Below, piece by piece: positions 11,617 through 51,041 of a DNA stretch of 64,000 bases (position 1 is the stretch's first letter; every line of letters begins with the position of its first letter). The translations under genes and the position numbers were made by a program. The notes beneath the pieces were generated by a model. It ran no database searches, was not told the DNA's origin, and was given only the letters and a program-made list of their open reading frames with translations. The DNA comes from an uncultured Lysobacteraceae bacterium (lineage in GTDB: Bacteria; Pseudomonadota; Gammaproteobacteria; Xanthomonadales; Xanthomonadaceae). The stretch covers positions 62,001-126,000 of the forward strand of contig CADECF010000002.1 of the NCBI GenBank assembly GCA_902825775.1, given 5' to 3'.

Positions 11617-11658
11617 ATTATTCCGGCCGGGCGGGAACTGGGACTTGATTTGGATCAA
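11617..11658 (-). promoter_or_regulatory. FNR-type class II promoter of the cco operon
   Basis: A perfect FNR/ANR box TTGAT-TTGG-ATCAA lies at 11645-11658. After a 22-bp gap comes the -10 hexamer AATAAT at 11617-11622, placing the box centre at -41.5 of a start site near 11610, about 22 bp before the ccoN ATG. Confidence 0.85.
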
Positions 11659-11877
11659 GGCGGATACGGCAACGTACTTTTGCGAAGGCCGGCGCCTAGA
11701 TCGCTCGTGAATACTGCAGCCGGTCAATGAGTGCGGCTGTCGCAAATAGCGGTCTTGCACGGCCAGTGTTATCGGGCCGCAATCCATATGCCCCTGGCAG
11801 TCGGCCTCGCGCGTACACGGGCTCAAGGGCCGGGTTGAGCTACAGAACCTTCGTAGTCGCGCGGTTCCCAGTCGCGC

Positions 11878-12528
11878 TCATCTCACCTTGACCCGGTTGT
11901 CGACCTTTTTGACCCCGGCAACCAGCCATGCCGCGTCTTCGACGGCGTTGCGGGCAACCCAGTCCTCCACCTTGCCTTTCAATACGACTTGACCTTCTTC
12001 GTCGACATCGACGCAGATGGCAGAAGCCTGCACGTCGGCCCGGCGGTGCATGGCCTCCTTAATGGAGTTCTTGATGTCCTCCTTCTTGGAGACCCGGCGG
12101 AGTACGATCTCGTTCTTCAAACCTGCGACGCCAGCCAGCCGACGCAGATCCTGTTCGGCCTCGGCCCGCTGGTACTGCCAGTCCACGCTGCCCGACAGGG
12201 TCAAACAGCCGTCCTCGACGGTGACTTTCACCGCCCCGCGGGGGATTGCGGTGTTCCAGTCCAAGACGGTGGCAGCGCGTTTGGCGACTTCCTCGTCTGT
12301 AAGCTGGAACTCCGGGGAGCGTCGCACCTCAAGCTCCACCACGATGCCGCGCACGCCCTTGACTCTGGCAGCGGCGTCGACAACGGCCGTCTTGTCCGCG
12401 TAGCTGTTGACGTGGCCAGTGAGGGTGACGAGGCGGTTGTCGACCGAAACGCCGACACCGGAGGCATCGATGCGAGGGTCGAACTTTAGTTCTTCGAGCA
12501 CATACCGCCGCAATTTTTCGCTGTTCAT
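11878..12528 (-). CDS. Triple BON-domain (OsmY-like) protein
   Basis: A 216-residue protein made of three BON domains (about 2-70, 75-145 and 148-216), each with the pattern VxxGxVxLxGxVxxxxxKxxAxxAAxxVxGVxxV. BON domains bind phospholipid or act as envelope and stress modules. No signal peptide is visible, so this version is probably cytoplasmic. The start codon is at 12528. A perfect FNR box and good -10 lie upstream, so it belongs to the low-oxygen regulon. Such triple-BON proteins commonly neighbour universal stress proteins in proteobacteria. Confidence 0.88.
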   Translation of the reverse strand: MNSEKLRRYVLEELKFDPRIDASGVGVSVDNRLVTLTGHVNSYADKTAVVDAAARVKGVRGIVVELEVRRSPEFQLTDEEVAKRAATVLDWNTAIPRGAVKVTVEDGCLTLSGSVDWQYQRAEAEQDLRRLAGVAGLKNEIVLRRVSKKEDIKNSIKEAMHRRADVQASAICVDVDEEGQVVLKGKVEDWVARNAVEDAAWLVAGVKKVDNRVKVR

Positions 12529-12552
12529 GGCCGCTCCCTCCGAAGGAACCTG

Positions 12553-12594
12553 ATTACAGCGTCAAGGCGAATTGCATCTTTTGATCGAGATCAA
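12553..12594 (-). promoter_or_regulatory. FNR-type promoter of the BON gene
   Basis: Perfect box TTGAT-CGAG-ATCAA at 12581-12594, then 22 bp, then -10 TGTAAT at 12553-12558 (five of six bases of the consensus). The predicted start site is about 18 bp upstream of the BON ATG. Confidence 0.85.
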
Positions 12595-12642
12595 TGGTCA
12601 GTCCGATCCTTGTGATTCAAGTTTTCCGGCCGCGCAGATGCC

Positions 12643-14064
12643 TTAGTCGCCCTTGGCGGCCTTGGTGAGCTTATGGCGCAAGTCGACGCTGTCGCGATAT
12701 TCGGGCACCCGTGCATCCCAGTGAAGTTCTCGTTCGATCCGTTTGCGAAGCTCATCTGAAGCGCCAGATTCACCGTGCACCAGAAATACCGCGCGAGGCT
12801 GGCGCGGCGCGGCATCGAGCCAAGTTAGGATTTCGTCGGCATCGGCGTGGGCCGATGCGGCGCCCAACGTTATCACTTCGGCATTCACAGATACGTCCTG
12901 ACCGTAGATGCGCACCGATTTGGCGCCCGACGCCAGGGCCGCGCCGCGCGTGCCGCCTGCCTGGTATCCGCTGAGCAGGATCGCGTTGCGTGGATCGGGC
13001 GCGAACGTGGTCAGATGATGCAGCACTCGGCCGCCGGTGAGCATGCCCGCGGCGGAAACGATGATCATCGGTCCCTTCTTGCGGTTAAGTGCTTTGGATT
13101 CTTCGGCTGTACGCACCAGTCGGGTCATTCGCCGCATGTTTTCCAGAGCACCGGCATCCAGACGGTGTTGACCGGCGTAACGGTGATAGAGATCGGTCAC
13201 ATCTGTAGCCATCGGGCTATTGAGGTAGACAGGAGTGTCTGGAATGGCTCCGTCCTGTTGGAGCTCGGCGATGGTGTGCAGCAGCAACTGCGCGCGACCG
13301 ACCGCAAAGGCTGGGATTACAGCCACACCGTTCCTGCCGAGCACGCTGGAGAGGGTGCTTTCAAGTTCGTTCTTCAGCGACCCTGGAGGGTGGTGCCTAT
13401 CGCCATAAGTGGATTCGCAGACGATCCAATCACTTTCGGCTGGAGGCGCCGGTGCAGGCATGATCGGATCGTTCGGGCGGCCGATATCGCCGCTGAAGGT
13501 GATGCGTATACCGCCGTGGTCGAGCGTCACCGCAGCCGCGCCCAGGATATGTCCCTGGTTCTTGAGAAAGGCTTGGATGCCTGGGACCGCAGCGAAATGC
13601 TGCTCGAAGGGTACGGTGCGGAAGCGTTCGAGGCAGGCTCGCGCTTCCTTTTCAGTGTATAGAGGCTCGGCCGGATGATGTCGCGATGAACCGATCCGGT
13701 TCGCGTAGCCGGCCTCTTCTTCCAGAAGTCTTCCTGAATCCGGTAACAGAATGCCGCACAGCGCCCGGGTCGCGTCGGTGCACCAGATCGGACCGCGGAA
13801 GCCTTCTCGTATCAAACGCGGCAGATAGCCCGAGTGGTCCAGATGGGCATGCGTCAGCACCACTGCGTCGATCGAGGCCGGATCGACCGGGAACGATGCC
13901 CAGTTGCGTAATCGCAACTGCTTATATCCCTGAAAGAGACCGCAATCCACCAACAAGCGCGCGTTACCGGTCTCTACCATATGGCGCGAGCCGGTCACCG
14001 TGGCGTTGGCGCCCAGGAAGGTGAGTGCGAAACGACTAGGGTCGCCAGCAGAAAGTGCAGCCAT
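12643..14064 (-). CDS. MBL-fold metallo-hydrolase with RNA-specificity (beta-CASP) domain
   Basis: A 473-residue protein of the CPSF73/Ysh1-like group of metallo-beta-lactamase fold RNA nucleases. The metal motif THAHLDHSG is at about 71-79 and FSGDIG near 212. The beta-CASP region contains ECESTYGDRHH-type sequence (about 240) and PAFAVGRAQ. The C-terminus contains the HxH-type motif SAHADADE. Catalytic residues appear intact. The family cleaves or degrades RNA, and this version is typical of hypoxia or stress islands of proteobacteria. An FNR-like box lies upstream. RNA substrates are unknown. Confidence 0.88.
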   Translation of the reverse strand: MAALSAGDPSRFALTFLGANATVTGSRHMVETGNARLLVDCGLFQGYKQLRLRNWASFPVDPASIDAVVLTHAHLDHSGYLPRLIREGFRGPIWCTDATRALCGILLPDSGRLLEEEAGYANRIGSSRHHPAEPLYTEKEARACLERFRTVPFEQHFAAVPGIQAFLKNQGHILGAAAVTLDHGGIRITFSGDIGRPNDPIMPAPAPPAESDWIVCESTYGDRHHPPGSLKNELESTLSSVLGRNGVAVIPAFAVGRAQLLLHTIAELQQDGAIPDTPVYLNSPMATDVTDLYHRYAGQHRLDAGALENMRRMTRLVRTAEESKALNRKKGPMIIVSAAGMLTGGRVLHHLTTFAPDPRNAILLSGYQAGGTRGAALASGAKSVRIYGQDVSVNAEVITLGAASAHADADEILTWLDAAPRQPRAVFLVHGESGASDELRKRIERELHWDARVPEYRDSVDLRHKLTKAAKGD

Positions 14065-14065
14065 A

Positions 14066-14649
14066 TCACCAGCTCTTGGCCTGGATGATTCTATTAGGCA
14101 GCCTGCGCGGTAGGCCTGGGTTGATCGAGGTCAACCAAGTGGGTTTCGATCGGGATTCACAGATGCGTGCGTTAGCGTCTGCGGGAACGCGATCACCCTC
14201 GGCGACGCGAATATAGTCGCCGACCACGAGTTCGGCCGATAGGGCCGATACCACTCTCCCGTCGCGAACCACTTTGCGCTCGGCGCGCTTAGATTCGCGT
14301 AAAGCCTGTAGAGCGCGTTCTGATCGCCAACCCTGGATAGGGTGAGTGCAATGACGGTCGCGCCCGATACGGCGAGCAGGGCGACATCGCCCGCTTCGCC
14401 GAGCGCCAGGTAAAGAATCGTGGCAGCGATCAGCAGAAGCAGCATGGATTGACGCAGGATTTCGGCCAGGAGCCGCGGCCACCGGCGGCGATCCGCGCTC
14501 GGCAGCAGATTGGGACCGTTGCGGCGCAGCCGCTGGTCCGCTTCGGTGGAAGACAGCCCTAGGCCGCCGGCTGCGGTTGGTGGGGCGCCGAGCGTCGGTG
14601 CAGATTGAGGCGAATCCGTCTGCTGGCAGGCCGCGCGACCGAAAGGCAT
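14066..14649 (-). pseudogene. Broken N-terminal fragment of a cation-transporting P-type ATPase
   Basis: Reading from ATG 14649, one frame gives the cation-ATPase N-terminal domain: LSSTEADQRLRRNGPNLLP, then a first membrane helix with LLLLIAATILYLALGEAGD and SGATVIAL. Near 14340 the homology jumps to another frame, which continues with RSERALQALRESKRAERKVV, then LVVGDYIRVAEGDRVPADA. After that the sequence stops matching; no actuator TGES, phosphorylation motif or the remaining ~700 residues are present. So the gene carries both a frameshift and a large 3' deletion. Its FNR-type promoter is preserved. P-type ATPases of this kind usually accompany USP/MBL/BON genes in hypoxia regulons. Confidence 0.8.
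14093..14134 (-). promoter_or_regulatory. FNR-like promoter of the MBL gene
   Basis: Box TTGAT-CGAG-GTCAA at 14121-14134 (a mixed half-site), 22 bp, then -10 CCTAAT at 14093-14098. It lies in what would be the 3' part of the broken ATPase gene. Confidence 0.7.
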
Positions 14650-14675: not shown

Positions 14676-14717
14676 ACGCTACACCGCGACTGATTTCTGA
14701 GAATTGATCGAGATCAG
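14676..14717 (-). promoter_or_regulatory. FNR-like promoter of the ATPase pseudogene
   Basis: Box TTGAT-CGAG-ATCAG at 14704-14717 (one mismatch), 22 bp, -10 TAGCGT at 14676-14681. It is divergent from the next box. Confidence 0.65.
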
Positions 14718-14731: not shown

Positions 14732-14773
14732 TTGATCAGAATCAAGGACCGCCCCTTTCGGTCGGGATAGCGT
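14732..14773 (+). promoter_or_regulatory. FNR-type promoter of the coiled-coil protein operon
   Basis: Perfect box TTGAT-CAGA-ATCAA at 14732-14745, 22 bp, -10 TAGCGT at 14768-14773. It shares its -10 sequence with the divergent promoter. The predicted start is near 14780, leaving a leader of about 30 nt. Confidence 0.85.
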
Positions 14774-14810: not shown

Positions 14811-15350
14811 ATGAAGATGACAATCCAGGCCCTCACACTCGCCTTGTTGCTGGCAACAGGCTCGAACGCATCCGCACAAGAAGCGCGCCCGTCAGCCGAG
14901 CAGAAGCCATCGGAAGTCACCGAAGCGACGCAGCGGGCCGAGATGCGCCGCGAAGTCGAAGAGGCAGCGCGTGCCATCAATGCCTACTCGGTAGCACGAA
15001 GGGGAGACGCGGCCAAACGCGCGCAACGGGCGATGGATGACATGGACCAGCGCCTCCGCTATTTCCAGGCCGAATGGTCCGCCGAGGCCAAGCGGATAGG
15101 CGACCGCTCGCAAGCTAACCGCGAGCGCGCGCTGGTCGAAGCCCGGGAACGGCGGGCGGAGCTGGAAAAGCAGTACCACGCGATGCAGGATAGCAATGCG
15201 CAAGCCTGGGAACGCGCGCGCGATGGTTTTATTCGCGCCTATCGCGACCTTGCCGTCACGCTTGGTATTCCAAGGCCGAAGCAGGAGACGAAGGAGGACG
15301 AGAAGACCGAGGACGACAAGGCTAAAGCCGACGAGTCCGAGGCTAGGTAA
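14811..15350 (+). CDS. Periplasmic coiled-coil stress protein
   Basis: A 179-residue protein with a clear signal peptide (MKMTIQALTLALLLATGSNA, cleavage after ASA). The mature part is almost wholly helical and highly charged (Arg/Glu/Lys), with coiled-coil potential from about 35 to 150. The tail is Lys/Glu/Asp-rich and low complexity. Start ATG 14811 has GGAGG six bases upstream; an earlier in-frame ATG lacks one. It resembles the sll1863-type stress response proteins in overall character, but that is a weak match. It is driven by an FNR box and followed by two overlapping genes, so it opens a three-gene operon. Confidence 0.75.
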   Translation: MKMTIQALTLALLLATGSNASAQEARPSAEQKPSEVTEATQRAEMRREVEEAARAINAYSVARRGDAAKRAQRAMDDMDQRLRYFQAEWSAEAKRIGDRSQANRERALVEARERRAELEKQYHAMQDSNAQAWERARDGFIRAYRDLAVTLGIPRPKQETKEDEKTEDDKAKADESEAR

Positions 15351-15499
15351 TGGTCGAGACTCCAGACCGCACGCCCGTCGCTATCCATGGGCGGGCGATC
15401 GCGGTCCTTGCTGTCTTTGCGGGCTTGGCTGGATTGCTCAGCCTCGAAACCGTGCACAGTTGGGTACGACAAGCTTTGGCTTGGCGGAGCCGATCGTGA
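15350..15499 (+). CDS. Small single-helix membrane protein
   Basis: A 49-residue frame. ATG 15350 overlaps the preceding stop (TAATG), and its TGA overlaps the next gene's GTG (GTGA). It encodes a basic N-terminus, one membrane helix (AIAVLAVFAGLAGLLSL, about 17-32) and a Trp/Arg-rich tail. Overlaps at both ends are the main evidence that it is real. I do not recognise the family. Confidence 0.55.
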   Translation: MVETPDRTPVAIHGRAIAVLAVFAGLAGLLSLETVHSWVRQALAWRSRS

Positions 15500-16032
15500 C
15501 GTCCCACCCGATACTTGGCCCTGCGCTGTTTGTGTTGCTCGCGGCGACGTCTGCGATGCTAGCCTTCTTTTCGAGCGCGGTCGTCGTACCCGCGGCGGTA
15601 TACGCATGGGGCCGACCAGCCACAATCTGCCTATTATGGCTAGGCTGGTGGCTAGGCGGTGTAGTCACTTACGCGCTGGGTCGAGGATTGCGGGCTCCGC
15701 TTATCCATACGCTAACCCGGGCTCCGGCGCTCGAAAAATATCTACCGCGCTTACCCAGGCAACTTAGCTGGCCGACTGTGCTGCTCATGCAGCTTGCATT
15801 GCCCTCGGAAGTGCCCGGCTATGTCTGCGGGGTGATGAAGGTGCCGTTCTTCACCTATGCCAGCGCGTTGGCGCTGGCGGAGTTGCCCTATGCCGTTGGC
15901 GCGGTGGTGGCCGGCGACAGCATCGTTCGGGGACAGACCATATGGCTCATCGCGCTCGGTGCATTGGCGGCGCTCTCGATGGTGACGGCCTATCGTCTAT
16001 TGCATCGCGCATTGCGCCGCAAAAACGCATAG
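15496..16032 (+). CDS. VTT-domain (DedA/TVP38-like) membrane protein
   Basis: A 178-residue polytopic protein starting at GTG 15496, which overlaps the previous stop. It contains a VTT/SNARE-associated domain: helix FVLLAATSAMLAFFSSA, then PAAVYAWGRPATICLLWLGW, GGVVTYALGR near 58-67, and PGYVCGVMKVPFFTYASAL near 115-133. DedA-type proteins act in lipid flipping and membrane homeostasis. The sequence is shorter than classical DedA (about 200 residues). It ends 20 bp from the convergent GNAT gene. Confidence 0.75.
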   Translation: MTSHPILGPALFVLLAATSAMLAFFSSAVVVPAAVYAWGRPATICLLWLGWWLGGVVTYALGRGLRAPLIHTLTRAPALEKYLPRLPRQLSWPTVLLMQLALPSEVPGYVCGVMKVPFFTYASALALAELPYAVGAVVAGDSIVRGQTIWLIALGALAALSMVTAYRLLHRALRRKNA

Positions 16033-16052: not shown

Positions 16053-16625
16053 TCACGCCAGGGGTTTTGGCCCATTCAAAGGCAGGGAGTAGATGACCTG
16101 GTGGACATCGTCCGGATCCGGCCGCCGATGGAAACCCAGATCGGTAGCCAAGTCCCGCATCTCGATATTCTCGGCCAGGTCGGTGGACTCCATCAGGCGC
16201 AGGCCGCGCTCCTGCGCGATCTTGATCAGCTTCTGCATCAGCGCCGTGCCCAGCCCTTTATGCTGCCATTCGTCAGCAACCACGACGGCGCACTCGCAGC
16301 GTTCGCGCGTCTCATCTACCGCGTAGCGGCTGACGCCAACGATACGATCCTTGCCGTTGCCTTCGACCACCGCGGCCAGCGCCACATCGTTGACATAGTC
16401 GATGTCGGTGAGTTTGTGGATGAATTCTTCGCTCGGACAGGACATCTGACCGAGAAAGCGCATCCGCTTCGAATCCGCCGACAAGGCCTGGATGAAATCC
16501 CGCTCCGCTTGCGCATCCCGGTTTCCGATCGGACGGATCAAAACCCAGCTGCCGTCGGAAAGGGTTTGGTGCCAGCGGGGATAGTCCGGACCCACGTAGG
16601 CGGACGGCGAGTAGGTATCGATCAT
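16053..16625 (-). CDS. GNAT family N-acetyltransferase, stress-regulon type
   Basis: A 190-residue GNAT acetyltransferase. The acetyl-CoA loop reads EWQHKGLGTALM (Q/R-x-x-G-x-G/A, about 118-129). The N-terminal half contains LIRPIGNRDAQAERDFIQAL, the usual GNAT alpha-1 region. It resembles the acetyltransferase domain of Pat-type protein acetylases, but without their CoA-ligase-like domain, so protein lysine acetylation is possible and unproven. A perfect FNR box lies 57 bp upstream. A second GNAT with the same kind of promoter lies at 18190-18759. Confidence 0.85.
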   Translation of the reverse strand: MIDTYSPSAYVGPDYPRWHQTLSDGSWVLIRPIGNRDAQAERDFIQALSADSKRMRFLGQMSCPSEEFIHKLTDIDYVNDVALAAVVEGNGKDRIVGVSRYAVDETRERCECAVVVADEWQHKGLGTALMQKLIKIAQERGLRLMESTDLAENIEMRDLATDLGFHRRPDPDDVHQVIYSLPLNGPKPLA

Positions 16626-16681: not shown

Positions 16682-16695
16682 TTGATTCAGATCAA
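16682..16695 (-). promoter_or_regulatory. FNR box of the first GNAT gene
   Basis: Perfect TTGAT-TCAG-ATCAA, 57 bp before the GNAT ATG. No convincing -10 hexamer lies at the expected place. It is divergent from the next box. Confidence 0.75.
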
Positions 16696-16742: not shown

Positions 16743-16756
16743 TTGATCCAGATCAA
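16743..16756 (+). promoter_or_regulatory. FNR box of the first universal stress protein gene
   Basis: Perfect TTGAT-CCAG-ATCAA, followed after 22 bp by a weak -10 (CCCAAT, 16779-16784). It rules out the upstream ATG at 16765 as start, since that would lie before the transcript begins. Confidence 0.8.
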
Positions 16757-18782: not shown

Positions 18783-18823
18783 AGCCTATTTCGCAGCGGC
18801 CGCTTGTCATTGACCAAGGTCAA
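18783..18823 (-). promoter_or_regulatory. FNR/DNR-like promoter of the second GNAT gene
   Basis: Box TTGAC-CAAG-GTCAA at 18810-18823, a perfect palindrome of the DNR/NNR variant, with -10 TAGGCT at 18783-18788 (gap 21 bp). Confidence 0.7.
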
Positions 18824-18960: not shown

Positions 18961-19680
18961 ATGTTGACCGTTGCCGCGCCCACCCTGGAATGCCCGCCGA
19001 TCGATTTCGCGGCCGGAACTACGACCATCGAATCCGCTCCGGCGGCGAGCCTGGAGGCCTTGCTGGCGCGCTGGCCTTTCCAGCGCAGGATCGTGCGGGC
19101 CAAGCAATACGTTTTCCGCGCCGGCCAGCCGCGGCAGTCCTTGTTCCTGGTGCATGCGGGCTTCTTCAAGACCTGCCTGGTGACGGAAGACGGGCGCGAG
19201 AAGATCACCGGCTTCCGCCTGCGCGGCGACATGCTGGGCCTGGATGCGTTGGACATGCCGACCTACGCCTGCGACGCCGTCGCGCTGGACGTGGGCGAGG
19301 TGTGGGAACTGCCGTACGCCCAACTGCGCGAGAGTCTGCCCGAGTTCCAACAGAGGATCACCGCGATCCTGGCCGGCGAAATCCGCCGCGACTGGAGTTG
19401 GATGCTGGCGCTGGGGACGCTGAGCGCGGAACAGCGGGTGGCGAATTTCCTGCTGGACTTGGCGGCGCGCATGGACGCCTTGGGTTTCAGCGCACGCCGG
19501 CTGACTTTGCGCATGACCCGCGCTGAAATCGGTAATTTCCTGGCGTTGAAGCTGGAAACGGTCACTCGCGCGCTTTCCAGCTTGCAGGCACAAGGCCTGA
19601 TCGGGGTGGAAGGGCGGGATATCCGGATCCAGGATCCGGCGGGTATGCGGGCTTGCTTGACTGTGGAGAAATGCCACTGA
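18961..19680 (+). CDS. Crp/Fnr-family regulator lacking the Fe-S cysteines
   Basis: A 239-residue regulator with a cyclic-nucleotide-like sensor domain (about 40-145) and a C-terminal helix-turn-helix (about 180-220) reading RAEIGNFLALKLETVTRAL. Of the FNR iron-sulfur ligands only a Cys in YACDA (C104) is retained; the N-terminus has a single Cys (C11), so no 4Fe-4S cluster can form. This is the pattern of DNR/NNR-type or cluster-less FNR proteins. NO sensing through heme is plausible but unproven. The recognition helix ETVTR differs from FNR's ETVSR. It sits beside the GNAT/USP block. Confidence 0.85.
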   Translation: MLTVAAPTLECPPIDFAAGTTTIESAPAASLEALLARWPFQRRIVRAKQYVFRAGQPRQSLFLVHAGFFKTCLVTEDGREKITGFRLRGDMLGLDALDMPTYACDAVALDVGEVWELPYAQLRESLPEFQQRITAILAGEIRRDWSWMLALGTLSAEQRVANFLLDLAARMDALGFSARRLTLRMTRAEIGNFLALKLETVTRALSSLQAQGLIGVEGRDIRIQDPAGMRACLTVEKCH

Positions 19681-21253: not shown

Positions 21254-21297
21254 GCCCCGGACCCTCTGGAAAATGTGTCGCGATGGTACTGCTCATG

Positions 21298-21834: not shown

Positions 21835-22062
21835 ATCGCTCAGTTAACCCTCGTCTGCACACCGGCACTTGCTGCCGGCCCGAGCACGCTCCAGTCGGGT
21901 CGGCCGCTGCCTGTCGACGTGGGTCCAAGCGAAACCCATGAAGCAGCGACGTCGCTTCCTCCATTTCCGGTACTGGCGCAAATGTTCGATTACGATCAAA
22001 GCGCGCGGCTTGATATGCAGGAACATTCCGTTGAAGAGCGTTGGAGTGGATGGGCTTGCTGA
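21817..22062 (+). pseudogene. Truncated secreted alpha/beta-hydrolase-like fragment
   Basis: An 81-residue frame with a signal peptide (MRFLIHIAQLTLVCTPALAA) and a good ribosome site (GGAG). The segment LAQMFDYDQSARLDMQEHSV resembles the N-terminus of secreted dienelactone-hydrolase/acetyl-xylan-esterase-like enzymes, where a long catalytic domain normally follows. Here it stops after about 25 further residues. I read it as a remnant that may still be translated. It overlaps the divergent acetyltransferase start by 18 bp. Confidence 0.4.
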
Positions 22063-22083
22063 ACTTTCACGGCAGAAAACAAC

Positions 22084-23190: not shown

Positions 23191-23199
23191 TGGCGCAGT

Positions 23200-37970: not shown

Positions 37971-39962
37971 TCAGGAACCGTCGATACGCACAGCAGCAGC
38001 CAAAAGCCGCTGCACAGTCGCCAGTAACTGCTCCCTGCGATAAGGCTTGCGCAAAAGATCGAAATCCGCGGCGCCGGAAATAGCGTGCTCTTCGTAGCCC
38101 GAGGTCAGCAGGATCGGCAAATCCGGCCGCAGCTGTCGCGCTTCCTCGGCCAGTTCTTTTCCGTTCCTGCCGCTGCCGAGCATGACATCGCTGAACAACA
38201 AGGCGATGTCCGGCGTATCGAGCAATACCTGCCTGGCGTCTTCCGCGCTCGCCACCGCCAAGACCTTGTAAGCCGAAGAACGCAGGAACGCGACGGCGAT
38301 ATTGCGCACGGCCGGATCGTCTTCCACCACCAGAATAGTTTCGCCGCCGCTGGTCGCGCGCCCTGCGCTTGCTGGCGCCGCGCCCTGCGCCGCGGCATGC
38401 GTCACCGGCAGATACAGGTCCACCCGCGTGCCGCGCCCTTGCGCGCTGTTGATCTGCAGATGCCCGCCGCTTTGCTTGGCGAAGCCGTAGACCATGCTCA
38501 GTCCCAGTCCGCTGCCGCGGCCGGATTCCTTGGTGGTGAAGAACGGTTCCATCGCGCGCGCCAAAGTGTCGGGCGACATGCCCTGGCCGGTATCGCTGAC
38601 CGAAACGAGGACGTAGTAACCGACCGGGAGTTCGCCGGAACTGCGGGTGGAATCGACCAACACCTGGCGCGCGCCGATACGGATCTCGCCGCCCTGCGGC
38701 ATCGCGTCGCGTGCGTTGAGCGCCAGGTTGACCAGGGCGGCTTCCAACTGGGTAGGGTCCACGAACGCCGCGGGAAGATCGGATTCGCAATCCAGCCGTA
38801 GGCTGATGGCATTGCCCAGCGTTCGCCTGAGCATGAGTTCGACGTCCTGCAGCAGCACGCGAGGATCCGTCGCCTGAGGCAATAGGCGCTGACGTCGCGC
38901 GAAGGCCAGCAGCTTGGAGGTCAGTTCCGCGCCTCGCGAGACCGAACGCAGCGCGGTGGCGATGAGCTCCTGCATCTCCGCACGGCCTTCGGTTTCCAGC
39001 TCCAGCAGCTGCAGGCTGCCGGACATCACCGTCAGCAGATTGTTGAAATCGTGGGCGATCCCGCCGGTCAGCTGGCCCAGCGCATCGAGGCGTTGCGCAT
39101 GCGCCAGCTGTTCTTCGGTGTGGCGGCGCTGCGCCAACGCGGCCAGCAGGTTGGCCACCGATTGCAGCAGGTGCAGCGCATCGTGATCGAACCGGCGCGG
39201 CTGCCGCGAATAGGCGATCAGCGCGCCGACCGCGCGATTGCGGTCGATCAGCGGTATCAGCGCGCCGCTGCCGGCGCTGTCGTGACGCAAGGGGAAGGGC
39301 GGTGCGCTCGAGGCGAAATCGTCGGCGATAACGGAAGCGCCGCTTTCGAGCGCGGCGGCGAAGATGCCCGCGTCTACCGGATTGCGATCGGCGTCCAGGC
39401 CTTTCGCTGCACGGATTTCGACCGTCTGCCGGTCCGGCCGCAAGGCGAGGATGGCGACCGTTTCTATTTTCAGCGCGTCGGCCAGCAAATCGGGCACCTC
39501 TCCGAGCACGCCGACCTCGTTTTCGGTCTCCAGTGCAAGCTGTCCGATGCGGGCGACGAGCGCGTCGTATCCGGCCCTCACCAAAGCCTGGCGAGCGCGC
39601 TGCGTTTCGGATATGTCGCGGATCGATGCCAGATAGCGCGGCCCGGCGTCGCTGTCGATCGGGCTCAGGGCGATTTCGACCGGGAATTGCGAACCGTCCC
39701 GGCGCAGCCCCACCAAAGTCTGACCTGTCGCGCCCATCGGCCGCAGATGCGGCTTGGCCATGTAGCCGGCCCGGTAGCCGCGATGCCGGCCGCGCGCTTC
39801 TTCGGGCAGCAGCATTTCGATCTCGGTGCCGGCGAGTTCTCCGCCGGCGTAACCGAACAATTGTTCGGCCTGGCGATTGGCCATGGCGATGCGGCCTTGG
39901 CCGTCGACGACGATCAGGGCGTCGGGAACGGCATCGAACAGGCCTGAAAACAGCGGTTCCAT
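37971..39962 (-). CDS. PAS-GAF hybrid histidine kinase with receiver domain
   Basis: A 663-residue soluble kinase. In order: PAS domain (about 5-125, DAVPDALIVVDGQGRI), GAF domain (about 135-275), HisKA with GGIAHDFNNLLTVM (His near 303), ATPase with N-box LNLALNARDAM-type sequence, DTGQGM and GSGLGLSMVYGF (about 480), and a C-terminal receiver (about 543-655) with VVEDD and a phosphoacceptor Asp in LLFSDVMLG. No membrane helices, so it senses a cytoplasmic signal. It lies 2 bp downstream of its probable partner regulator on the same strand. Confidence 0.92.
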   Translation of the reverse strand: MEPLFSGLFDAVPDALIVVDGQGRIAMANRQAEQLFGYAGGELAGTEIEMLLPEEARGRHRGYRAGYMAKPHLRPMGATGQTLVGLRRDGSQFPVEIALSPIDSDAGPRYLASIRDISETQRARQALVRAGYDALVARIGQLALETENEVGVLGEVPDLLADALKIETVAILALRPDRQTVEIRAAKGLDADRNPVDAGIFAAALESGASVIADDFASSAPPFPLRHDSAGSGALIPLIDRNRAVGALIAYSRQPRRFDHDALHLLQSVANLLAALAQRRHTEEQLAHAQRLDALGQLTGGIAHDFNNLLTVMSGSLQLLELETEGRAEMQELIATALRSVSRGAELTSKLLAFARRQRLLPQATDPRVLLQDVELMLRRTLGNAISLRLDCESDLPAAFVDPTQLEAALVNLALNARDAMPQGGEIRIGARQVLVDSTRSSGELPVGYYVLVSVSDTGQGMSPDTLARAMEPFFTTKESGRGSGLGLSMVYGFAKQSGGHLQINSAQGRGTRVDLYLPVTHAAAQGAAPASAGRATSGGETILVVEDDPAVRNIAVAFLRSSAYKVLAVASAEDARQVLLDTPDIALLFSDVMLGSGRNGKELAEEARQLRPDLPILLTSGYEEHAISGAADFDLLRKPYRREQLLATVQRLLAAAVRIDGS

Positions 39963-39964: not shown

Positions 39965-40711
39965 TCAGCTCCGTTTGACTTCGGCCGCGAGCAGATAGCC
40001 CGCACCGCGGACGGACTTGATCAAAGCCGGTTGCGTCGGATCGTCGCCGAGTTTGCGTCGCAAGCGTCCGATCTGCACATCGATGGCGCGATCGTACGGC
40101 CCGGCATCGCGGCCGTGGAGGCGGCTCATGAGCTGGTCGCGACTCAACACCTGGCGCGGATGGGAAACCAGAACCCGCAGCAAATCGAATTCGCCCGTAG
40201 TGAGCGGAATGTCGCGTCCGTCGGGCCCGATCAGGTGGCGCGACGTCGGGTCCAATGTGAAGCCGGCGAAAGACAGCTTGGCGTCCGCAACGACATTGGG
40301 ACTAGTGGGCGGTTTCGTCCTTCGCAGAACGGTGCGGATCCGGGCGACAAGCTCTCGGAAGTCGAAAGGCTTGGTGACGTAGTCGTCGGCGCCGAGTTCG
40401 AGTCCCACGACCCGTTCCACAGCGTCGCCTCGGCCCGTTACCACGATGACCGGTCCGCGCCAGACAGCCTGGAGGTGTTTGAGGTGCGATAAACCGTCTT
40501 CGTCAGGGAGACCCAGATCCAGCAGCACGAGATCGATCGGTCGACTACTGATCGCAGCGCGCGACTCCGCGGCGGAGCCGGCGGAAACCACTCGAAATCC
40601 ATGGCCGCTCAAATAACGGTCCAGCAGCCGGCGGATTTCCTCGTCGTCGTCGACCACCAGCACCGAGGGTAGGTCGGGGGCCGTTCCAGCGTTGGTTTCG
40701 GTAGGGGGCAT
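39965..40711 (-). CDS. OmpR/KdpE-type response regulator
   Basis: A 248-residue regulator. The receiver (about 16-128) has VVDDDEE, phosphoacceptor Asp in LVLLDLGLPDEDG (near 62), VTGRG and VTKPFDFREL. The winged helix (about 145-245) contains LTTGEFDLLRVLVSHPRQVL and ends IKSVRGAGYLLAAEV. The stop is 2 bp before the hybrid kinase start, so the two form a two-component operon. It is divergent from the alcohol dehydrogenase gene. Confidence 0.93.
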   Translation of the reverse strand: MPPTETNAGTAPDLPSVLVVDDDEEIRRLLDRYLSGHGFRVVSAGSAAESRAAISSRPIDLVLLDLGLPDEDGLSHLKHLQAVWRGPVIVVTGRGDAVERVVGLELGADDYVTKPFDFRELVARIRTVLRRTKPPTSPNVVADAKLSFAGFTLDPTSRHLIGPDGRDIPLTTGEFDLLRVLVSHPRQVLSRDQLMSRLHGRDAGPYDRAIDVQIGRLRRKLGDDPTQPALIKSVRGAGYLLAAEVKRS

Positions 40712-40803: not shown

Positions 40804-40845
40804 TTGACCCAGGTCAAAACGATCCGAGCCGAGGATCGCTACGTT
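40804..40845 (+). promoter_or_regulatory. FNR/DNR-like promoter of the alcohol dehydrogenase gene
   Basis: Box TTGAC-CCAG-GTCAA at 40804-40817, 22 bp, -10 TACGTT at 40840-40845. The predicted start site is near 40852, about 19 bp before the ATG. Confidence 0.75.
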
Positions 40846-43120: not shown

Positions 43121-43162
43121 AGTGTCGGGATTCCAGCGGGACGGTGCGTTGACTTTGGTCAA
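43121..43162 (-). promoter_or_regulatory. FNR/DNR-like promoter of the second USP gene
   Basis: Box TTGAC-TTTG-GTCAA at 43149-43162, 22 bp, weak -10 GACACT at 43121-43126. It is divergent from the hemN box 32 bp away. Confidence 0.65.
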
Positions 43163-43194: not shown

Positions 43195-43236
43195 TTGATC
43201 CGCATCAAGGTCCTGGCGGCGAGCAAGGATTAGTTT
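43195..43236 (+). promoter_or_regulatory. FNR-type promoter of hemN
   Basis: Perfect box TTGAT-CCGC-ATCAA at 43195-43208, 22 bp, -10 TAGTTT at 43231-43236. The expected start site falls at about 43243, which is the A of the hemN ATG. Confidence 0.85.
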
Positions 43237-43242
43237 TTCGGC

Positions 43243-44643
43243 ATGGGAACCCATCTTTCCTTCGACACGGCGATGCTGCGTACCTACGACCGACCGGGGC
43301 CGCGGTATACCTCGTACCCGACCGTTCCGCAGTTTTCCAACGAATTCGGCGAAAGCGACTTGCGCCTGGCGGCGAAGGCGAGCAACGAGGAGCCGATCCC
43401 GCGCCGGCTGTCCTTGTACGTGCATGTGCCGTTCTGCGCGAGCCCGTGCTTCTATTGCGGCTGCAACCGCATCATCACCCGGGATCCGGCGCGCGGCGAG
43501 ATCTACCTGACGCGGCTCTATCGGGAAATCGCGATGACCGCAGAATTGTTCGATCGAGATCGGGAAGCGATCCAACTTCATCTCGGCGGCGGGACGCCGA
43601 ACTTTCTGTCACCGACCCAGTTGGGCGAATTGGTGAGTGCATTGCGCTCCCATTTCAGGTTCTCGGAATCGGCCGGCAGAGACTTTTCGATCGAGCTCGA
43701 CCCGCGTTGCGTATCGCCCGACGACGTGGCCGAACTGGCGATGCTGGGATTCAACCGCACCAGCCTCGGCGTACAGGATTTCGATCCGGATGTGCAGGCC
43801 GCGGTCAACCGCATCCAGTCGGTGGAGGAGACTCTGGCGATCATCGAAGCCTGTCGCCGTCATGGCATGCGCTCGGTCAATGTCGACTTGATCTACGGGC
43901 TGCCGAAGCAGACCGTCGCGGGGTTCGCGCGGACGCTGGATACGGTGATCGCGGCGCGGCCGGACCGGCTGGCCGTGTACAGCTACGCGCATCTGCCCGA
44001 GTTGTTCAAACTGCAGCGGCGGATCGATTCGGCCGACCTGCCTTCTTCCGAGGCCAAGCTGGGCCTGCTGCAGTTGGCGATCGAAAAGTTGACCGCGGCC
44101 GGCTACGTCTACATCGGCATGGACCATTTCGCATTGCCGGACGACGATCTCGCCATCGCACAGGCGCATGGTGGGTTGCACCGGAATTTCATGGGCTATA
44201 CCACGCATGCCGATACCGACCTCGTGGGGCTCGGCGTCAGCGCGATCAGCCATATAGGAGATTGCTACAGCCAGAATCCGCGCGACCTGCCCAGTTGGCA
44301 GGCCGCCATCGACGACGGCCGCCTACCCGTGTTTCGCGGCATGCGTCTGAGCGAGGACGACCAACTGCGCGCCGACTTGATCCAAGGACTGATGTGCCAG
44401 GGCGAAGTGCCGGTTGCCCCATTGGAGCGCCGCTACGGCATCGATTTCGGGGACTATTTCGCCGAATCGCTGGAAAAATTGCGGCCCTTAGCAGCGGACG
44501 GGCTGGTTCGGATCAAGCCCGGAAAGATCGTGGCGACTTCGCAAGGACGGTTGTTGCTGCGCAATATAGCGATGTGTTTCGATCGATATCTTCACGAAAA
44601 GCCGTCCATCGATGCGCCAGTGCGATTCTCCCGCGCTATCTGA
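43243..44643 (+). CDS. hemN: Oxygen-independent coproporphyrinogen III dehydrogenase
   Basis: A 466-residue radical-SAM enzyme that makes protoporphyrinogen IX from coproporphyrinogen III without O2, needed for heme under anoxia. The motif C65-x3-C69-x2-C72 (FCASPCFYCGCNR) binds the 4Fe-4S cluster and SAM. The N-terminus DRPGPRYTSYPTVPQF is typical. The C-terminal part has FRGMRLSEDDQ and the HemN C-domain with a basic LIQGLM. Full length. It lies 19 bp upstream of the FNR gene, a linkage common in proteobacteria. Confidence 0.96.
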   Translation: MGTHLSFDTAMLRTYDRPGPRYTSYPTVPQFSNEFGESDLRLAAKASNEEPIPRRLSLYVHVPFCASPCFYCGCNRIITRDPARGEIYLTRLYREIAMTAELFDRDREAIQLHLGGGTPNFLSPTQLGELVSALRSHFRFSESAGRDFSIELDPRCVSPDDVAELAMLGFNRTSLGVQDFDPDVQAAVNRIQSVEETLAIIEACRRHGMRSVNVDLIYGLPKQTVAGFARTLDTVIAARPDRLAVYSYAHLPELFKLQRRIDSADLPSSEAKLGLLQLAIEKLTAAGYVYIGMDHFALPDDDLAIAQAHGGLHRNFMGYTTHADTDLVGLGVSAISHIGDCYSQNPRDLPSWQAAIDDGRLPVFRGMRLSEDDQLRADLIQGLMCQGEVPVAPLERRYGIDFGDYFAESLEKLRPLAADGLVRIKPGKIVATSQGRLLLRNIAMCFDRYLHEKPSIDAPVRFSRAI

Positions 44644-44662
44644 AGGCAGCGCCGACTACGGC

Positions 44663-45415
44663 ATGAGCCGCAGCGCATTCCCGCGCGTAGACGGTCGAAC
44701 GTTCGCTGACGACGGCGACTCGCTGCATTTTTGTTCGACATGCGCTTTCTCGCAGGCCTGCATGTCGGAAGGCATGGACAAGCGCGCATTGTCGGACCTG
44801 CATGTGCTGGTCGAGCACGTCGGCCCGTTGCGCGCGGGAGAGCACGTCTTCCGCGAGGGCGATCCATTCGAGGTCATCGCCGCGGTGCGCGCGGGCACGG
44901 TCAAAACCTACGTCGTCGATCCGGACGGGCGCGAGCATGTGCTCGGCTTCCACCTCCCGGGCGAGGTGATAGGACTGAATGCGATCGATGGCGAGCACTA
45001 TCCTTGCAACGCGGTGGCATTGGATACGGTAATGCTGTGCCGGTTTTCGTTCCCGAAAATATCGGTTCTTGCGGCCAAACTCCCTGGGTTGCAGAAGCAT
45101 TTGTTTCGCCTGTTGAGTCGCGACATTGGCCGCGCCGTGATGCTCGCGGGGGATTGGACGGCGGACCAACGCATGGCCGCCTTCCTGATTGGCATCTCCC
45201 GCCGCTTGGCAGCACGCGGTTTCTCGCCGCTACGTTTCCAACTAACCATGGCCCGCACCGATATCGCGAATTACCTCAGGCTGGCGCCGGAAACTGTCAG
45301 CCGCGTCTTGAAGCGGTTCCAAGAAGATGGGCTGCTGCAGGTGGATCGTCGCGAAGTGGAACTGGTCGGCATGGTCCGTTTGGAAGCCTTGGCAGGAGCG
45401 GTACTGCGGGCCTAA
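44663..45415 (+). CDS. fnr: FNR-type oxygen-sensing regulator
   Basis: A 250-residue FNR/ANR orthologue. The iron-sulfur Cys are present: C24, C27 and C33 (FCSTCAFSQAC) and C115 (YPCNA). A cyclic-nucleotide-like barrel follows (about 50-150). The recognition helix has APETVSRVLKRFQ with E210, S213 and R214, the residues FNR uses to read TTGAT half-sites. The ATG at 44663 is chosen as it follows the hemN stop; an upstream in-frame ATG at 44612 would overlap hemN by 32 bp. It is the expected activator of the boxes in this window. Confidence 0.93.
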   Translation: MSRSAFPRVDGRTFADDGDSLHFCSTCAFSQACMSEGMDKRALSDLHVLVEHVGPLRAGEHVFREGDPFEVIAAVRAGTVKTYVVDPDGREHVLGFHLPGEVIGLNAIDGEHYPCNAVALDTVMLCRFSFPKISVLAAKLPGLQKHLFRLLSRDIGRAVMLAGDWTADQRMAAFLIGISRRLAARGFSPLRFQLTMARTDIANYLRLAPETVSRVLKRFQEDGLLQVDRREVELVGMVRLEALAGAVLRA

Positions 45416-45479: not shown

Positions 45480-45521
45480 TTGATCTAGATCATGGTGGGG
45501 GAGGGCGCCCGAAGCGACCAT
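45480..45521 (+). promoter_or_regulatory. FNR-like promoter of the NO reductase gene
   Basis: Box TTGAT-CTAG-ATCAT at 45480-45493 (one mismatch), 22 bp, -10 GACCAT at 45516-45521 (weak). ATG 45492 overlaps the box, so the start at 45546 is preferred. Confidence 0.65.
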
Positions 45522-45545: not shown

Positions 45546-47873
45546 ATGACCGATACGCGCAAGCTATGGCTGGGCTTGGCCGCCCTGCTGCTCGCTTCGT
45601 TCGCCGTGCTGCTGTGGGCCGGGGGTGAAATCTTCCGGGCTGCGCCGCCGGTACCGGAGCGGGTCGTGGCCGAGGACGGCACCGAGGTCTACACGCGGAA
45701 CGACATCCAGATCGGGCGCCAAGTCTGGCAGTCGATGGGCGGCATGCAACTGGGGTCGATCTGGGGTCATGGCGGCTACGTCGCGCCGGACTGGAGCGCG
45801 GACTGGCTGCATCGCGAAGCTACGGCGATGCTCGACCTCTGGGCCCGGCAGGACGGCGGCAGTGCAACCTACGCCCAGTTGTCGGCCGAGGAACAGGCCG
45901 CGCTTCGCGGCCGCTTGCAGGAAGTGATGCGGCGCAATACCTACGATCAGGCGACCGGTACGATCACGCTCGGCCGCGACCGCGTGGCCGCACTGTCGAA
46001 CGTCGCCGCGCACTACGAAAGCTTGTTTGGCAACGATCCGTCCACGCGCGAGCTGCGCGAAGCCTATGCGATGAAGGAAAACACGGTACCCGACGCCGCG
46101 CATCGGCGCGCGCTCACCGCGTTCTTCTGGTGGACGGCGTGGGCAGCGGGCACCGAGCGCCCGCCTGCGGCTGGCGATGAAATGGTGCCGGATCAAGCGG
46201 GCGTTCCCGACAAGCGCGTCACATACACCAACAATTGGCCGAACGAGCCGCTGATCGGCAATGCACCGCCACCGCCGCTGTGGGTCTGGTCGGCCTTCAG
46301 CGTATTGTTCTTGCTGGCCGGCATCGGCCTGCTCGGGTGGCACCATGCCCGCACGCACGACCGCGAAGAATCGCCCCCGTTGCCGGCGACCGATCCGTTG
46401 GCCACACTGCGCATCACACCGTCGATGCGCGCCACGGCCAAGTACTTCTGGGTGGTGCTGGCGCTATTCCTGGTGCAGATCCTGCTCGGCGCCATGACTG
46501 CGCACTATCAGATCGAAGGTCAGCAGGCTTACGGATACGCGCTATCGGATGTGCTGCCGTACTCGATCACGCGCACCTGGCACACGCAGTTGGCGGTGCT
46601 GTGGATCGCTGTGGCTTGGCTGGGAACCGGCTTGTATATCGCGCCGGCGATGTCGGGGCACGAGCCGAAGTTCCAGCGTTTCGGTGTGAACTTCCTCTTT
46701 GTCTGTCTGCTGATCATCGTGGTCGGCTCGTTCGCTGGCCAATGGTTGGCGGTGATGCAGAAGTTGGGCTTGGCCAATAACTTCTGGTGGGGGCATCAGG
46801 GCTGGGAATACGCCGACATGGGCAGGTTCTGGCAATGGTTCCTCTTCGTCGGTCTGCTGCTATGGCTGACCCTGGTCGGCCGCGCGCTGTGGCCGGTGCT
46901 GCGAGGGCCGCAGAGCGACACCAAAGCGATCGTGGGACTACTGTTCCTGTCTACCGTCTGCATCGGCCTGTTCTTCGGCGCTGCGCTGATGTGGGGCGAG
47001 CATACCCACATCTCCGAGGTCGAATACTGGCGCTGGTGGCTTGTGCATCTGTGGGTGGAAGGTTTCTTCGAGGTGTTCGCCACCGCGGTGATGGCGTTGA
47101 TCTTCGTCCGGCTGGGGCTGGTGCAAGCCAAATCGGCGACGACCGCGGTGCTGTTCGCGACCATCGTATTCATGGCCGGCGGCGTACTGGGTACCCTGCA
47201 TCACCTGTACTTCGTCGGCACGCCGACGGCGGTAGTGGCACTGGGCGCCAGTTTCAGCGCGCTGGAAGTGGTTCCGCTGGCCTACATCGGCTTCGAGGCG
47301 TATCACACCTACAAGCTGGGCCATGCCACGCCATGGATGGCGCGTTACCGCTGGCCAATCCTGTTCTTCGTCGCGGTATCGTTCTGGAATCTGGTGGGCG
47401 CGGGTCTGTTCGGTTTTCTGATCAACCCGCCCCTATCGCTGTACTTCATGCAGGGTCTGAATCTGACGCCGCTGCACGGCCATACCGCGCTGTTCGGCGT
47501 GTACGGCATGCTCGGCATCGCGCTGGTGCTGTTCTGCATGCGCGGCCTGCGAGGGCAGATGCAGTGGGACACGCGGGCACTGAAGACGGCATTCTGGTGT
47601 CTCAACATCGGTTTGGCGCTGATGGCGCTGCTGACCCTGCTACCGCTGGGCACGATGCAGTTGCTTGCGGCGATCGAGCACGGCTACGCCTATGCGCGTT
47701 CAGCCGAGTTCATGCAGAAGCCCATCGTCGAACTACTGGTGTGGATGCGGGTACCGGGCGACACCATCTTCAGCGTCGGTGCACTGGCGTTGACATGGTT
47801 CATCTTCCGATTGTGGGTGGCGCCGAAGCGCGATCCGGCCCTGGAAGGCCAGCCCGAAGGTGCTGATTGTTGA
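45546..47873 (+). CDS. norB: Quinol-dependent nitric oxide reductase (qNor)
   Basis: A 775-residue single-subunit NO reductase that turns two NO into N2O with quinol as donor. Compared with cNor NorB (about 450 residues) it has an N-terminal helix plus a 200-residue periplasmic domain (about 35-240, ARNDIQIGRQVWQSMGGMQL-type region), the qNor hallmark. Metal-site His are visible in HTQLAVLWIAV (about 350), NFWWGHQGWEY, HLWVEGFFEVF (His and Glu for FeB, about 505) and GTLHHLYFVG (about 560). 13-14 helices. ATG 45546 has AGGGAGA upstream. Confidence 0.95.
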   Translation: MTDTRKLWLGLAALLLASFAVLLWAGGEIFRAAPPVPERVVAEDGTEVYTRNDIQIGRQVWQSMGGMQLGSIWGHGGYVAPDWSADWLHREATAMLDLWARQDGGSATYAQLSAEEQAALRGRLQEVMRRNTYDQATGTITLGRDRVAALSNVAAHYESLFGNDPSTRELREAYAMKENTVPDAAHRRALTAFFWWTAWAAGTERPPAAGDEMVPDQAGVPDKRVTYTNNWPNEPLIGNAPPPPLWVWSAFSVLFLLAGIGLLGWHHARTHDREESPPLPATDPLATLRITPSMRATAKYFWVVLALFLVQILLGAMTAHYQIEGQQAYGYALSDVLPYSITRTWHTQLAVLWIAVAWLGTGLYIAPAMSGHEPKFQRFGVNFLFVCLLIIVVGSFAGQWLAVMQKLGLANNFWWGHQGWEYADMGRFWQWFLFVGLLLWLTLVGRALWPVLRGPQSDTKAIVGLLFLSTVCIGLFFGAALMWGEHTHISEVEYWRWWLVHLWVEGFFEVFATAVMALIFVRLGLVQAKSATTAVLFATIVFMAGGVLGTLHHLYFVGTPTAVVALGASFSALEVVPLAYIGFEAYHTYKLGHATPWMARYRWPILFFVAVSFWNLVGAGLFGFLINPPLSLYFMQGLNLTPLHGHTALFGVYGMLGIALVLFCMRGLRGQMQWDTRALKTAFWCLNIGLALMALLTLLPLGTMQLLAAIEHGYAYARSAEFMQKPIVELLVWMRVPGDTIFSVGALALTWFIFRLWVAPKRDPALEGQPEGADC

Positions 47874-50003: not shown

Positions 50004-50017
50004 ATGACCTGGGTCAA
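50004..50017 (-). promoter_or_regulatory. Imperfect FNR/DNR-like box upstream of the small ORF
   Basis: ATGAC-CTGG-GTCAA, one mismatch from the palindrome. A weak -10 (TTTCCT, 49976-49981) lies 22 bp away. It could also assist the divergent AOX promoter. Confidence 0.45.
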
Positions 50018-50061: not shown

Positions 50062-50103
50062 TTGACCCAGATCAAGCGCCGCTGGGGATGCAACGCGTAC
50101 CTT
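50062..50103 (+). promoter_or_regulatory. FNR/DNR-type promoter of the alternative oxidase gene
   Basis: Box TTGAC-CCAG-ATCAA at 50062-50075, 22 bp, -10 TACCTT at 50098-50103, giving a leader of about 45 nt. Confidence 0.75.
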
Positions 50104-50153
50104 GGACACATCGGCGTCTACCCGCCAACAGCTCTTAGATCAAGGGTCGTTTC

Positions 50154-50831
50154 ATGAATGCTTTGATTACTCCTGTCGTCCAAACTCCGGACGACATCGT
50201 GCTGGATAGCCATCAGCCCACTCGCGATTGGTCCGATCGCGTCGCCTACGGCATAACCCGCGGGCTGCGTTTTATGGCCGACACCTTCTTCGCCAAGCGT
50301 TACGGCAACCGCGCGATCGTGCTGGAGACGGTGGCTGCTGTGCCAGGCCTGGTCGGTGCGGCCCTGATCCACCTTCGTTGCCTGCGGTGGATGAAGTACG
50401 ACCACGGCTGGATCCGCGCGCTTATGGAAGAAGCCGAGAACGAGCGTATGCATCTGATGACCTTCATCGAGATCGCGCGGCCGAATTTGGTGGAGCGCGC
50501 CCTCGTGTTGGTGGCGCAGGCGGGCTTCTTTACTTTCTTCCTGCTGCTGTACTTAGCGTCGTCCCGCACCGCCCACCGCTTGGTTGGTTACTTCGAAGAG
50601 CAGGCGGTGGTGAGCTATAGCCAGTACCTGCGGGAGATCGATAGCGGACGCGTCGCGAACGTGCCCGCGCCAAAGATCGCCATCGACTACTGGCAGTTGC
50701 ACGCCGGCGCGCGCCTGCGCGAGGTCGTCCTCGCTGTGCGCGCCGACGAGGCCGGTCATCGCGACGTCAATCACGGCTTCGCCAACGAGTTGCGACCGGC
50801 GCGGGGAGGGTCGGCGCCGCTGGCCCGGTGA
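50154..50831 (+). CDS. aox: Alternative oxidase (diiron quinol oxidase)
   Basis: A 225-residue membrane-associated diiron oxidase that oxidises quinol and reduces O2 to water without proton pumping. All diiron ligands are visible: E58 (LETVAAVPG), E97 and H100 (ENERMHL), E148/E149 (YFEEQAV), E199 and H202 (ADEAGHRDVNH). It lacks the plant-type mitochondrial leader and dimer-Cys region. AOX is cyanide- and NO-resistant, which suits its place between the nnrS and nirK groups. An FNR-type box precedes it and a strong terminator follows. Confidence 0.95.
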   Translation: MNALITPVVQTPDDIVLDSHQPTRDWSDRVAYGITRGLRFMADTFFAKRYGNRAIVLETVAAVPGLVGAALIHLRCLRWMKYDHGWIRALMEEAENERMHLMTFIEIARPNLVERALVLVAQAGFFTFFLLLYLASSRTAHRLVGYFEEQAVVSYSQYLREIDSGRVANVPAPKIAIDYWQLHAGARLREVVLAVRADEAGHRDVNHGFANELRPARGGSAPLAR

Positions 50832-50856
50832 GCCCCGCCGGCCAGCATTCGCGCGC

Positions 50857-50880
50857 AGGGCCCTTCGGGGCCCTTTTTTT
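50857..50880 (+). terminator. Rho-independent terminator after AOX
   Basis: Stem AGGGCCC (50857-50863) and GGGCCCT (50868-50874), TTCG loop, seven T (50874-50880). A textbook hairpin 25 bp after the stop. Confidence 0.95.
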
Positions 50881-50908
50881 GTGCGTTTTTCGGGCCCGAC
50901 TGGCGGGC

Positions 50909-50972
50909 ATGATCTAGATCAAGAAGAGAGCTCGCGGACGGGCCCGGCTCCGTCGGAGTTGACCTAGATCAG
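50909..50972 (+). promoter_or_regulatory. Two imperfect FNR-like boxes upstream of the nirK operon
   Basis: ATGAT-CTAG-ATCAA (50909-50922) and TTGAC-CTAG-ATCAG (50959-50972), each with one mismatch, 50 bp apart. The second is followed at 22 bp by CAGACT (50995-51000), a weak -10. Dual sites may allow control by two regulators. Confidence 0.65.
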
Positions 50973-51041
50973 GGCCGCTATGCGGCCGGAAACCCAGACT
51001 GCGCGCAACACTAAGGCGCAACTCCAGGGAGTTCGGTCGAT

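Follow-up and report, generated by a model that had tools for sequence, protein, structure and literature searches.

A probable low-oxygen FNR-type regulon on an integrative island at tRNA-Phe in an uncultured Lysobacteraceae bacterium

The window analysed here, a stretch of 64,000 nucleotides from an uncultured Lysobacteraceae bacterium (assembly GCA_902825775.1, contig CADECF010000002.1, positions 62,001 to 126,000), contains most of an element of 59,551 bp that ends at a tRNA-Phe gene. The respiratory cargo of the element includes a cbb3 oxidase, an alternative oxidase (AOX), HemN, NirK, qNor and NnrS, and its stress-type cargo two universal stress proteins (USPs), GNATs, a BON protein, a beta-CASP metallo-beta-lactamase (MBL) protein and an alcohol dehydrogenase (ADH). 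Subunit I of the cbb3 oxidase, CcoN (10077..11588, minus strand), scores above the cut-off of TIGR00780, and genes of the ccoO, ccoP, ccoG and ccoI types (3616..10084, minus strand; Pfam, NCBIfam) lie downstream of ccoN. NirK (51068..52741, plus strand; TIGR02376, 367.5 bits with a cut-off of 296.3) has a C-terminal cytochrome c domain and a true start that is probably downstream of 51068; no nitrate reductase was found among the proteins scanned. Two (CcoN and qNor) of the three COX1-family proteins of this genome are located on the element, with one such protein in each of three congeners, and a single bd oxidase is present in each of these four genomes. Boxes of the FNR type at class II spacing jointly precede genes of respiration, partial denitrification and stress, as an earlier sequence-only reading of the window had proposed, and the target genes are those that it named.

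The 16 box coordinates given in that reading are all correct in the sequence; its division into 10 exact and 6 one-mismatch boxes has to be replaced with 11 and 5 (consensus TTGAY-N4-RTCAA, 14 bp), and in all five inexact boxes the mismatch falls on a terminal base. When up to one mismatch is allowed, the window contains 22 sites where 3.2 would be expected, and none of 100 shuffles reached 22. The exact boxes amount to 12, including one at 24338 that had not been reported and that is ruled out as a promoter element by its position inside a gene. The other 11 are intergenic, with the box centre 41.5-85.5 bp (five times 63.5 bp) from the start called by a simple codon-usage gene caller trained on the window genes. 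Four of the remaining one-mismatch sites (9933, 10546, 33993 and 58160) fall inside called genes, and the fifth, with an inner mismatch (21986..21999, plus strand), is a possible box centred 91.5 bp ahead of a histidine kinase gene (22084-23190), with AACATT at a gap of 22 bp between box and -10 hexamer.

Towards the left end of the window, the box at 11645..11658 (minus strand) precedes ccoN, with AATAAT at gap 22, and the boxes at 12581..12594 and 14121..14134 (both minus) precede, respectively, the BON gene (11878-12528; TGTAAT at gap 22) and the gene of the MBL beta-CASP protein (12643-14064; CCTAAT at gap 22, with gap 27 scoring higher). TAGCGT is found at gap 22 from each of the next two boxes, at 14704..14717 (minus, one mismatch), ahead of an N-terminal piece of a cation ATPase (14131-14649), and at 14732..14745 (plus), ahead of 14811-15350 and a VTT gene (15496-16032). 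Two GNAT genes, 16053-16625 and 18190-18759, are preceded by the boxes at 16682..16695 and 18810..18823 (both minus), each with its hexamer at gap 21, and between these boxes lies that of the USP gene 16813-17655 (16743..16756, plus; CCCAAT at gap 22, with gap 27 scoring higher). Further to the right come the boxes of ADH (40804..40817, plus; gene 40880-41902, TACGTT at gap 22), of the second USP gene (43149..43162, minus; gene 42253-43092, GACACT at gap 22), of hemN (43195..43208, plus; gene 43243-44643, TAGTTT at gap 22) and of qNor (45480..45493, plus, one mismatch; start at about 45546-45561, GACCAT at gap 22). AOX (50154-50831) has an upstream box with one mismatch (50004..50017, plus; hexamer at gap 23) and a second box at 50062..50075 (plus; TACCTT at gap 22), and nirK likewise has an upstream box, at which no -10 was found (50909..50922, plus, one mismatch), and a second one at 50959..50972 (plus, one mismatch; CAGACT at gap 22). 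The cation ATPase open reading frame covers only the N-terminal part of such a protein, and the ATPase genes that match it in genomes G034 and G022 are far longer, with query lengths of 1211 and 836 aa.

All eight -10 hexamers named in the sequence-only reading lie at gap 22; the constant gap of 22 bp that it asserted holds for the 12 of the 16 boxes with a positive -10 at this distance but not for the other four. When the 16 boxes were oriented to their genes before any -10 was inspected and gaps of 10-39 bp were scored, with E. coli -10 frequencies, gap 22 gave a mean -10 score of 0.44 while no other gap exceeded -3.55, and none of 5000 single-base shuffles reached the gap-22 score. Two of the twelve gap-22 boxes (14121 and 16743) score better at gap 27. 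A gap of 22 bp places the centre of the box at -41.5, which is the FNR class II position.

The same spacing prevails in the relatives, for which 109 loci (80 + 29; 1.55 Mb) were collected. These loci contain 166 exact boxes, of which 14 fall within called genes, and yield 180 box-gene pairs, or 172 once 8 pairs in genes or cut short are removed. A positive -10 is present at gap 22 in 85 of these pairs, at gap 21, the next best, in 29, and at gap 23 in 21; the pair counts are not independent, since common descent links many of the loci and a box between divergent genes is counted twice. The targets with a homologue on the element are chiefly nirK (32), ccoN (27), hemN (20) and qNor (11), and in 67 pairs the downstream gene has no such homologue. 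With 12 of 16 boxes here and 85 of 172 pairs in the relatives, the predicted promoters show the FNR class II spacing. Two Burkholderiaceae records (L243 and L244), considered as further support for gap 22, gave the opposite: all four of their promoter-positioned boxes, admittedly a small number, peak at gap 21. Separately, the centre of the hemN box (43195-43243) lies 41.5 bp from the called ATG, and 15 of the 20 hemN pairs from relatives show this distance or one of 42.5 bp; a leaderless hemN transcript is therefore predicted.

The right end of the element lies within the gene for tRNA-Phe (gaa; 54334..54409, minus strand; ARAGORN), where attR (54333..54384, minus strand) is a 52-bp repeat formed by the 3' end of the tRNA gene and one further base. 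A second copy of this repeat, with zero mismatches, is located on the same contig 5.1 kb to the left of the window (C2:56834-56885), and a gene for a tyrosine recombinase (Pfam PF00589; C2:57020-58381) adjoins it. Each of the three congeners has one tRNA-Phe gene, which carries a single 52-bp copy and adjoins the right flank, and no match to an island protein or the integrase was found near tRNA-Phe in any of them (19 kb fetched each); the left flank is immediately next to tRNA-Phe in congener G002 and 1.9 kb away in G003. Related integrases were detected at 11 loci in 10 other genomes (149 searched, the own genome included), and at 7 of the 11 the short stretch fetched contains a 49-52-bp piece of the 3' end of tRNA-Phe (93.9-100% identity). 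An integrase, a direct repeat of a tRNA 3' end and an element-free site in relatives thus identify a tRNA-integrated island. Relaxase or mating-pair genes were not found among the proteins scanned with Pfam, a scan that did not cover all open reading frames, and we accordingly speak of an integrative island and not of an integrative and conjugative element. The sequence-only reading had recognized the joint placement of the boxes as a system but had overlooked this integrative element. Not far from the end of the island that carries the recombinase gene, the G+C content drops to 54% over the leftmost positions of the window (1-2000). A tRNA-Ala (AGC) reported by ARAGORN at 61516-61598 overlaps a called gene and is probably a false call.

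Exact boxes are concentrated on the island. The genome contains 23, of which 13 (12 in the window and one to its left, at C2:60921) lie within 59.55 kb of 3.76 Mb (binomial P 4e-18). Eleven of these 13 are promoter-positioned, one is inside a gene, and one, the intergenic box at C2:60921, has no called start nearby. Off the island, 8 of the 10 exact boxes are inside called genes, 2 are intergenic and none has a start 30-150 bp downstream. Of the 92 off-island sites with a terminal mismatch, 58 were examined; 52 of these are in genes and 4 have a start in range, one of the latter with a positive -10 at gap 22. The same test in the window finds 18 sites, 2 in genes and 16 with a start in range, 13 of which have a positive -10 in either direction (50004 being counted towards a doubtful small open reading frame). 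Sites with wrong spacers (5-8 bp) number 21 genome-wide, none of them on the island. In the three congeners, for which only counts were made, there are 5, 7 and 10 exact boxes; the exact boxes off the island are at background level and within the range of the congeners. The core cytochrome bd gene at C7:175275 is at least 25 kb from any exact or end-mismatch site of its contig.

The sequence-only reading was right that the window encodes its own FNR; what it missed is that there are two FNR-family proteins, not one, which rules out a single-FNR reading. In FNR, the Fe-S ligands are three N-terminal cysteines and a central one, and the recognition helix contains E..SR. FNR2 (44612..45415, plus strand; Pfam, NCBIfam), whose true start may lie downstream of 44612, has all four cysteine positions, and both the cysteine set and the E, S and R of the helix are present in 35 of 35 aligned FNR2 proteins (the own protein included; chosen at >54% identity). 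It scores 193.1 bits against the NCBIfam Fnr model, below the cut-off of 228, and is for this reason labelled FNR-type and not assigned to that family. FNR1 (18961..19680, plus strand; Pfam, NCBIfam), upstream of which the box at 18810 lies at 144.5 bp on its other side, lacks the set, as do all 10 FNR1 proteins compared (chosen at >50% identity): eight of the 10 have W at the fourth ligand position, eight retain a further cysteine that is not a ligand, and in nine T replaces S in the recognition helix. In comparisons with solved structures, FNR1 matches FNR chains at E 3e-34, FixK2 at 8e-21 and DNR (3dkw) at 4e-10; DNR, the haem NO sensor, is therefore not its closest relative by sequence, FNR structures being nearer.

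Three proteins in the genome exceed the Pfam cut-off for HTH_Crp_2; the island encodes two of them and contig C4 the third, which scores lower. With FNR1 as the query, FNR2 is retrieved at E 1e-32 and the C4 protein at 1.1e-7, and in each of the three congeners there is a single Crp-family match at the level of the C4 protein (E 1e-7 to 1.4e-6). The 680 plasmid records for FNR1 are all below 60% identity, and FNR1 is thus not considered plasmid-borne. A hybrid histidine kinase (PAS-GAF-HisKA-receiver; here 37971..39962, minus strand; Pfam) and an OmpR-type response regulator (39965..40711, minus strand; Pfam) follow FNR1 in 7 of 8 neighbourhoods of relatives, and in the eighth (G022) they stand beside an FNR1 match that the gene caller missed. 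On the island this triad is split by the 18-kb stretch 19793-37615, which holds an amidohydrolase, a kinase, a propeller protein, CsrA (25882-26121) and very large proteins, one of them with DUF11 and OmpA domains.

Taken together, the window probably represents most of a 59.5-kb integrative island at tRNA-Phe with an acquired and largely closed low-oxygen regulon of the FNR type. In the proposed mechanism, FNR2, apparently of the Fe-S type and encoded behind hemN, would become active as oxygen falls and, bound to the TTGAY-N4-RTCAA boxes with their centres at -41.5, would act as a class II activator that brings RNA polymerase to about a dozen promoters. These would drive the cbb3 oxidase, AOX, HemN (and hence FNR2 itself), NirK and qNor as well as a stress set composed of the USP, GNAT, BON, MBL and ADH genes. 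FNR1, the cysteine-less paralogue, would probably provide a second input on the stress half. The single oxygen/NO regulon of the sequence-only reading retains its shared boxes and spacing, but control by one FNR is not established given that the cysteine-less FNR1 is also present, and the singleness of the regulon is uncertain because two regulators could share the box.

The most substantial rival is that there are two regulons, FNR2 governing the respiration and NO half and FNR1 with its kinase the stress half, with the common box reflecting only the specificity of the family; this is a genuine possibility, if not the one that we favour. It would fit the two FNR-family genes, the missing Fe-S cysteine set of FNR1 and the T for S in 9 of 10 FNR1 proteins, as well as the surroundings of the triad in relatives, where, in the stretch fetched, it is found near USP, MBL or BON genes and mostly without hemN-qNor-nirK. 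However, the two halves have similar boxes with the same 22-bp gap, and in G048 both halves occur in one locus, which argues for one regulon.

Several observations, made in one congener, at four of the boxes, in part of the island, among the off-island sites and in a genome of another genus, weigh against an acquired, closed regulon. In congener G001, 12.3 kb of unrelated genes (L154 1322-13606) separate the left flank from tRNA-Phe, and because of these genes its empty site is not clean. Four of the 16 boxes (16682, 18810, 50004 and 50909) have no -10 at gap 22, and the stretch 19793-37615 contains neither an exact nor an end-mismatch box in promoter position. The 10 exact boxes off the island are about twice the mean per wrong spacing (about 5), so that a few of them could be real, and weak core targets are possible, the examined off-island set consisting of the exact boxes and 58 of the 92 end-mismatch sites. 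An ordinary genome-wide FNR regulon, clustered on the island by chance and with its other targets on weaker boxes, would draw on the fact that FNR regulons usually include weak sites and on the 34 of 92 end-mismatch and all inner-mismatch off-island sites that are outside the examined set; yet the 68 sites examined (10 exact and 58 end-mismatch) include 60 located within called genes and 4 followed by a start at 30-150 bp, of which a single one has a -10 at gap 22, and congeners that lack FNR have up to as many exact boxes, all of which makes this explanation quite improbable. An ancestral locus, with a regulon that has long been at tRNA-Phe in this family and was excised from the congeners, appears unlikely although not to the same degree; the reason to consider loss by the congeners in place of gain is G005, from another genus of the family (g3), which carries part of the stress half at the same tRNA-Phe. 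Between the same tRNA-Phe flanks, this genome has a 22-kb stretch (L228 6017 to 28319 on L228 and L229 joined) with USP, BON, ATPase, FNR1, kinase and regulator genes, and its FNR1 DNA is 77% identical to that of the island, like the ftsY region. By contrast, the DNA of its USP, kinase and regulator genes is only 65-67% identical, neither the hemN-FNR2-qNor-nirK half nor a match to the island integrase was found in its 40 kb, and the identical 52-bp repeats with the adjacent recombinase point to an element. Furthermore, 8 of the 10 FNR1 genomes have tRNA-Phe on a contig other than that of FNR1 and a ninth has it at a distance of 218 kb, although separate draft contigs do not exclude nearness of FNR1 and tRNA-Phe in those 8. 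With FNR1 near tRNA-Phe only in G005 among these 10 genomes, tRNA-Phe was rejected as a general hotspot for FNR1 modules.

The acquired island may represent a closed transferable regulon in the strict sense, that is, a unit that would supply a lineage devoid of FNR with an oxygen sensor, a cysteine-less FNR with kinase input and almost all of their targets while leaving the core promoters untouched; we consider this stronger claim evenly balanced. The cargo may have moved as one unit, and such a regulon would imply that a single insertion event can confer a whole response of the global type, from the sensor through the promoters to the effectors. The island would then be a natural test case, a regulator with its recognizable targets nearly all on its own element, beside congeners without it.

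A search of the open-licence literature returned, among the matches listed (titles and beginnings of abstracts), no description of this island or of any FNR regulon restricted to a genomic island. A looser parallel is found in Sphingopyxis, where nitrate respiration is described as confined to one strain and an FtrB-like regulator is encoded beside nar (PMC4741004). The DNR/FNR-type regulons of denitrifying Proteobacteria, with nnrS as a member in some genomes, have the same type of box before nirK, norB and hemN, whereas confinement to a mobile island is not seen in the passages considered, and the term universal stress has no occurrence in that text either (PMC1274295). By gene content, the island resembles the low-oxygen-activated lxa locus of Burkholderia cenocepacia, which includes USPs, a Zn alcohol dehydrogenase and a 51-kDa metallo-beta-lactamase protein (PMC6127331, PMC9104464); the island also groups USPs, a Zn-ADH and an MBL protein, but has two USPs in place of six and, in addition, cbb3, NirK, qNor, AOX and an integrase. 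In strain H111, itself without lxa, Anr-type regulators and a TTGATCTCGATCAA site before the bd oxidase are reported (PMC6127331, PMC9104464). A conjugative Paraburkholderia plasmid likewise combines USPs, ADH and an MBL protein with an fnr.

Among the matches listed, the nearest parallel is the nitrate element of Thermus, described as mobile clusters that give an aerobe anaerobic respiration of nitrogen oxides together with regulators of their own, namely DnrT, a cysteine-less CRP-family protein, and DnrS, a GAF-domain protein and proposed oxygen sensor (PMC5748679). The likeness lies in the mobile nitrogen-oxide respiration with its own cysteine-less regulator of the CRP family; unlike the Thermus element, the island has in addition a predicted FNR of the Fe-S type, carries cbb3, AOX, NirK, qNor, HemN and stress genes and is inserted at tRNA-Phe. 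DnrT also acts on core operons, whereas no promoter-positioned exact box was found in the core genome here. Relative to these parallels, the present case contributes exact boxes for which no promoter-positioned counterpart was found off the island, a putative Fe-S-type FNR and a class II spacing at most of the boxes.

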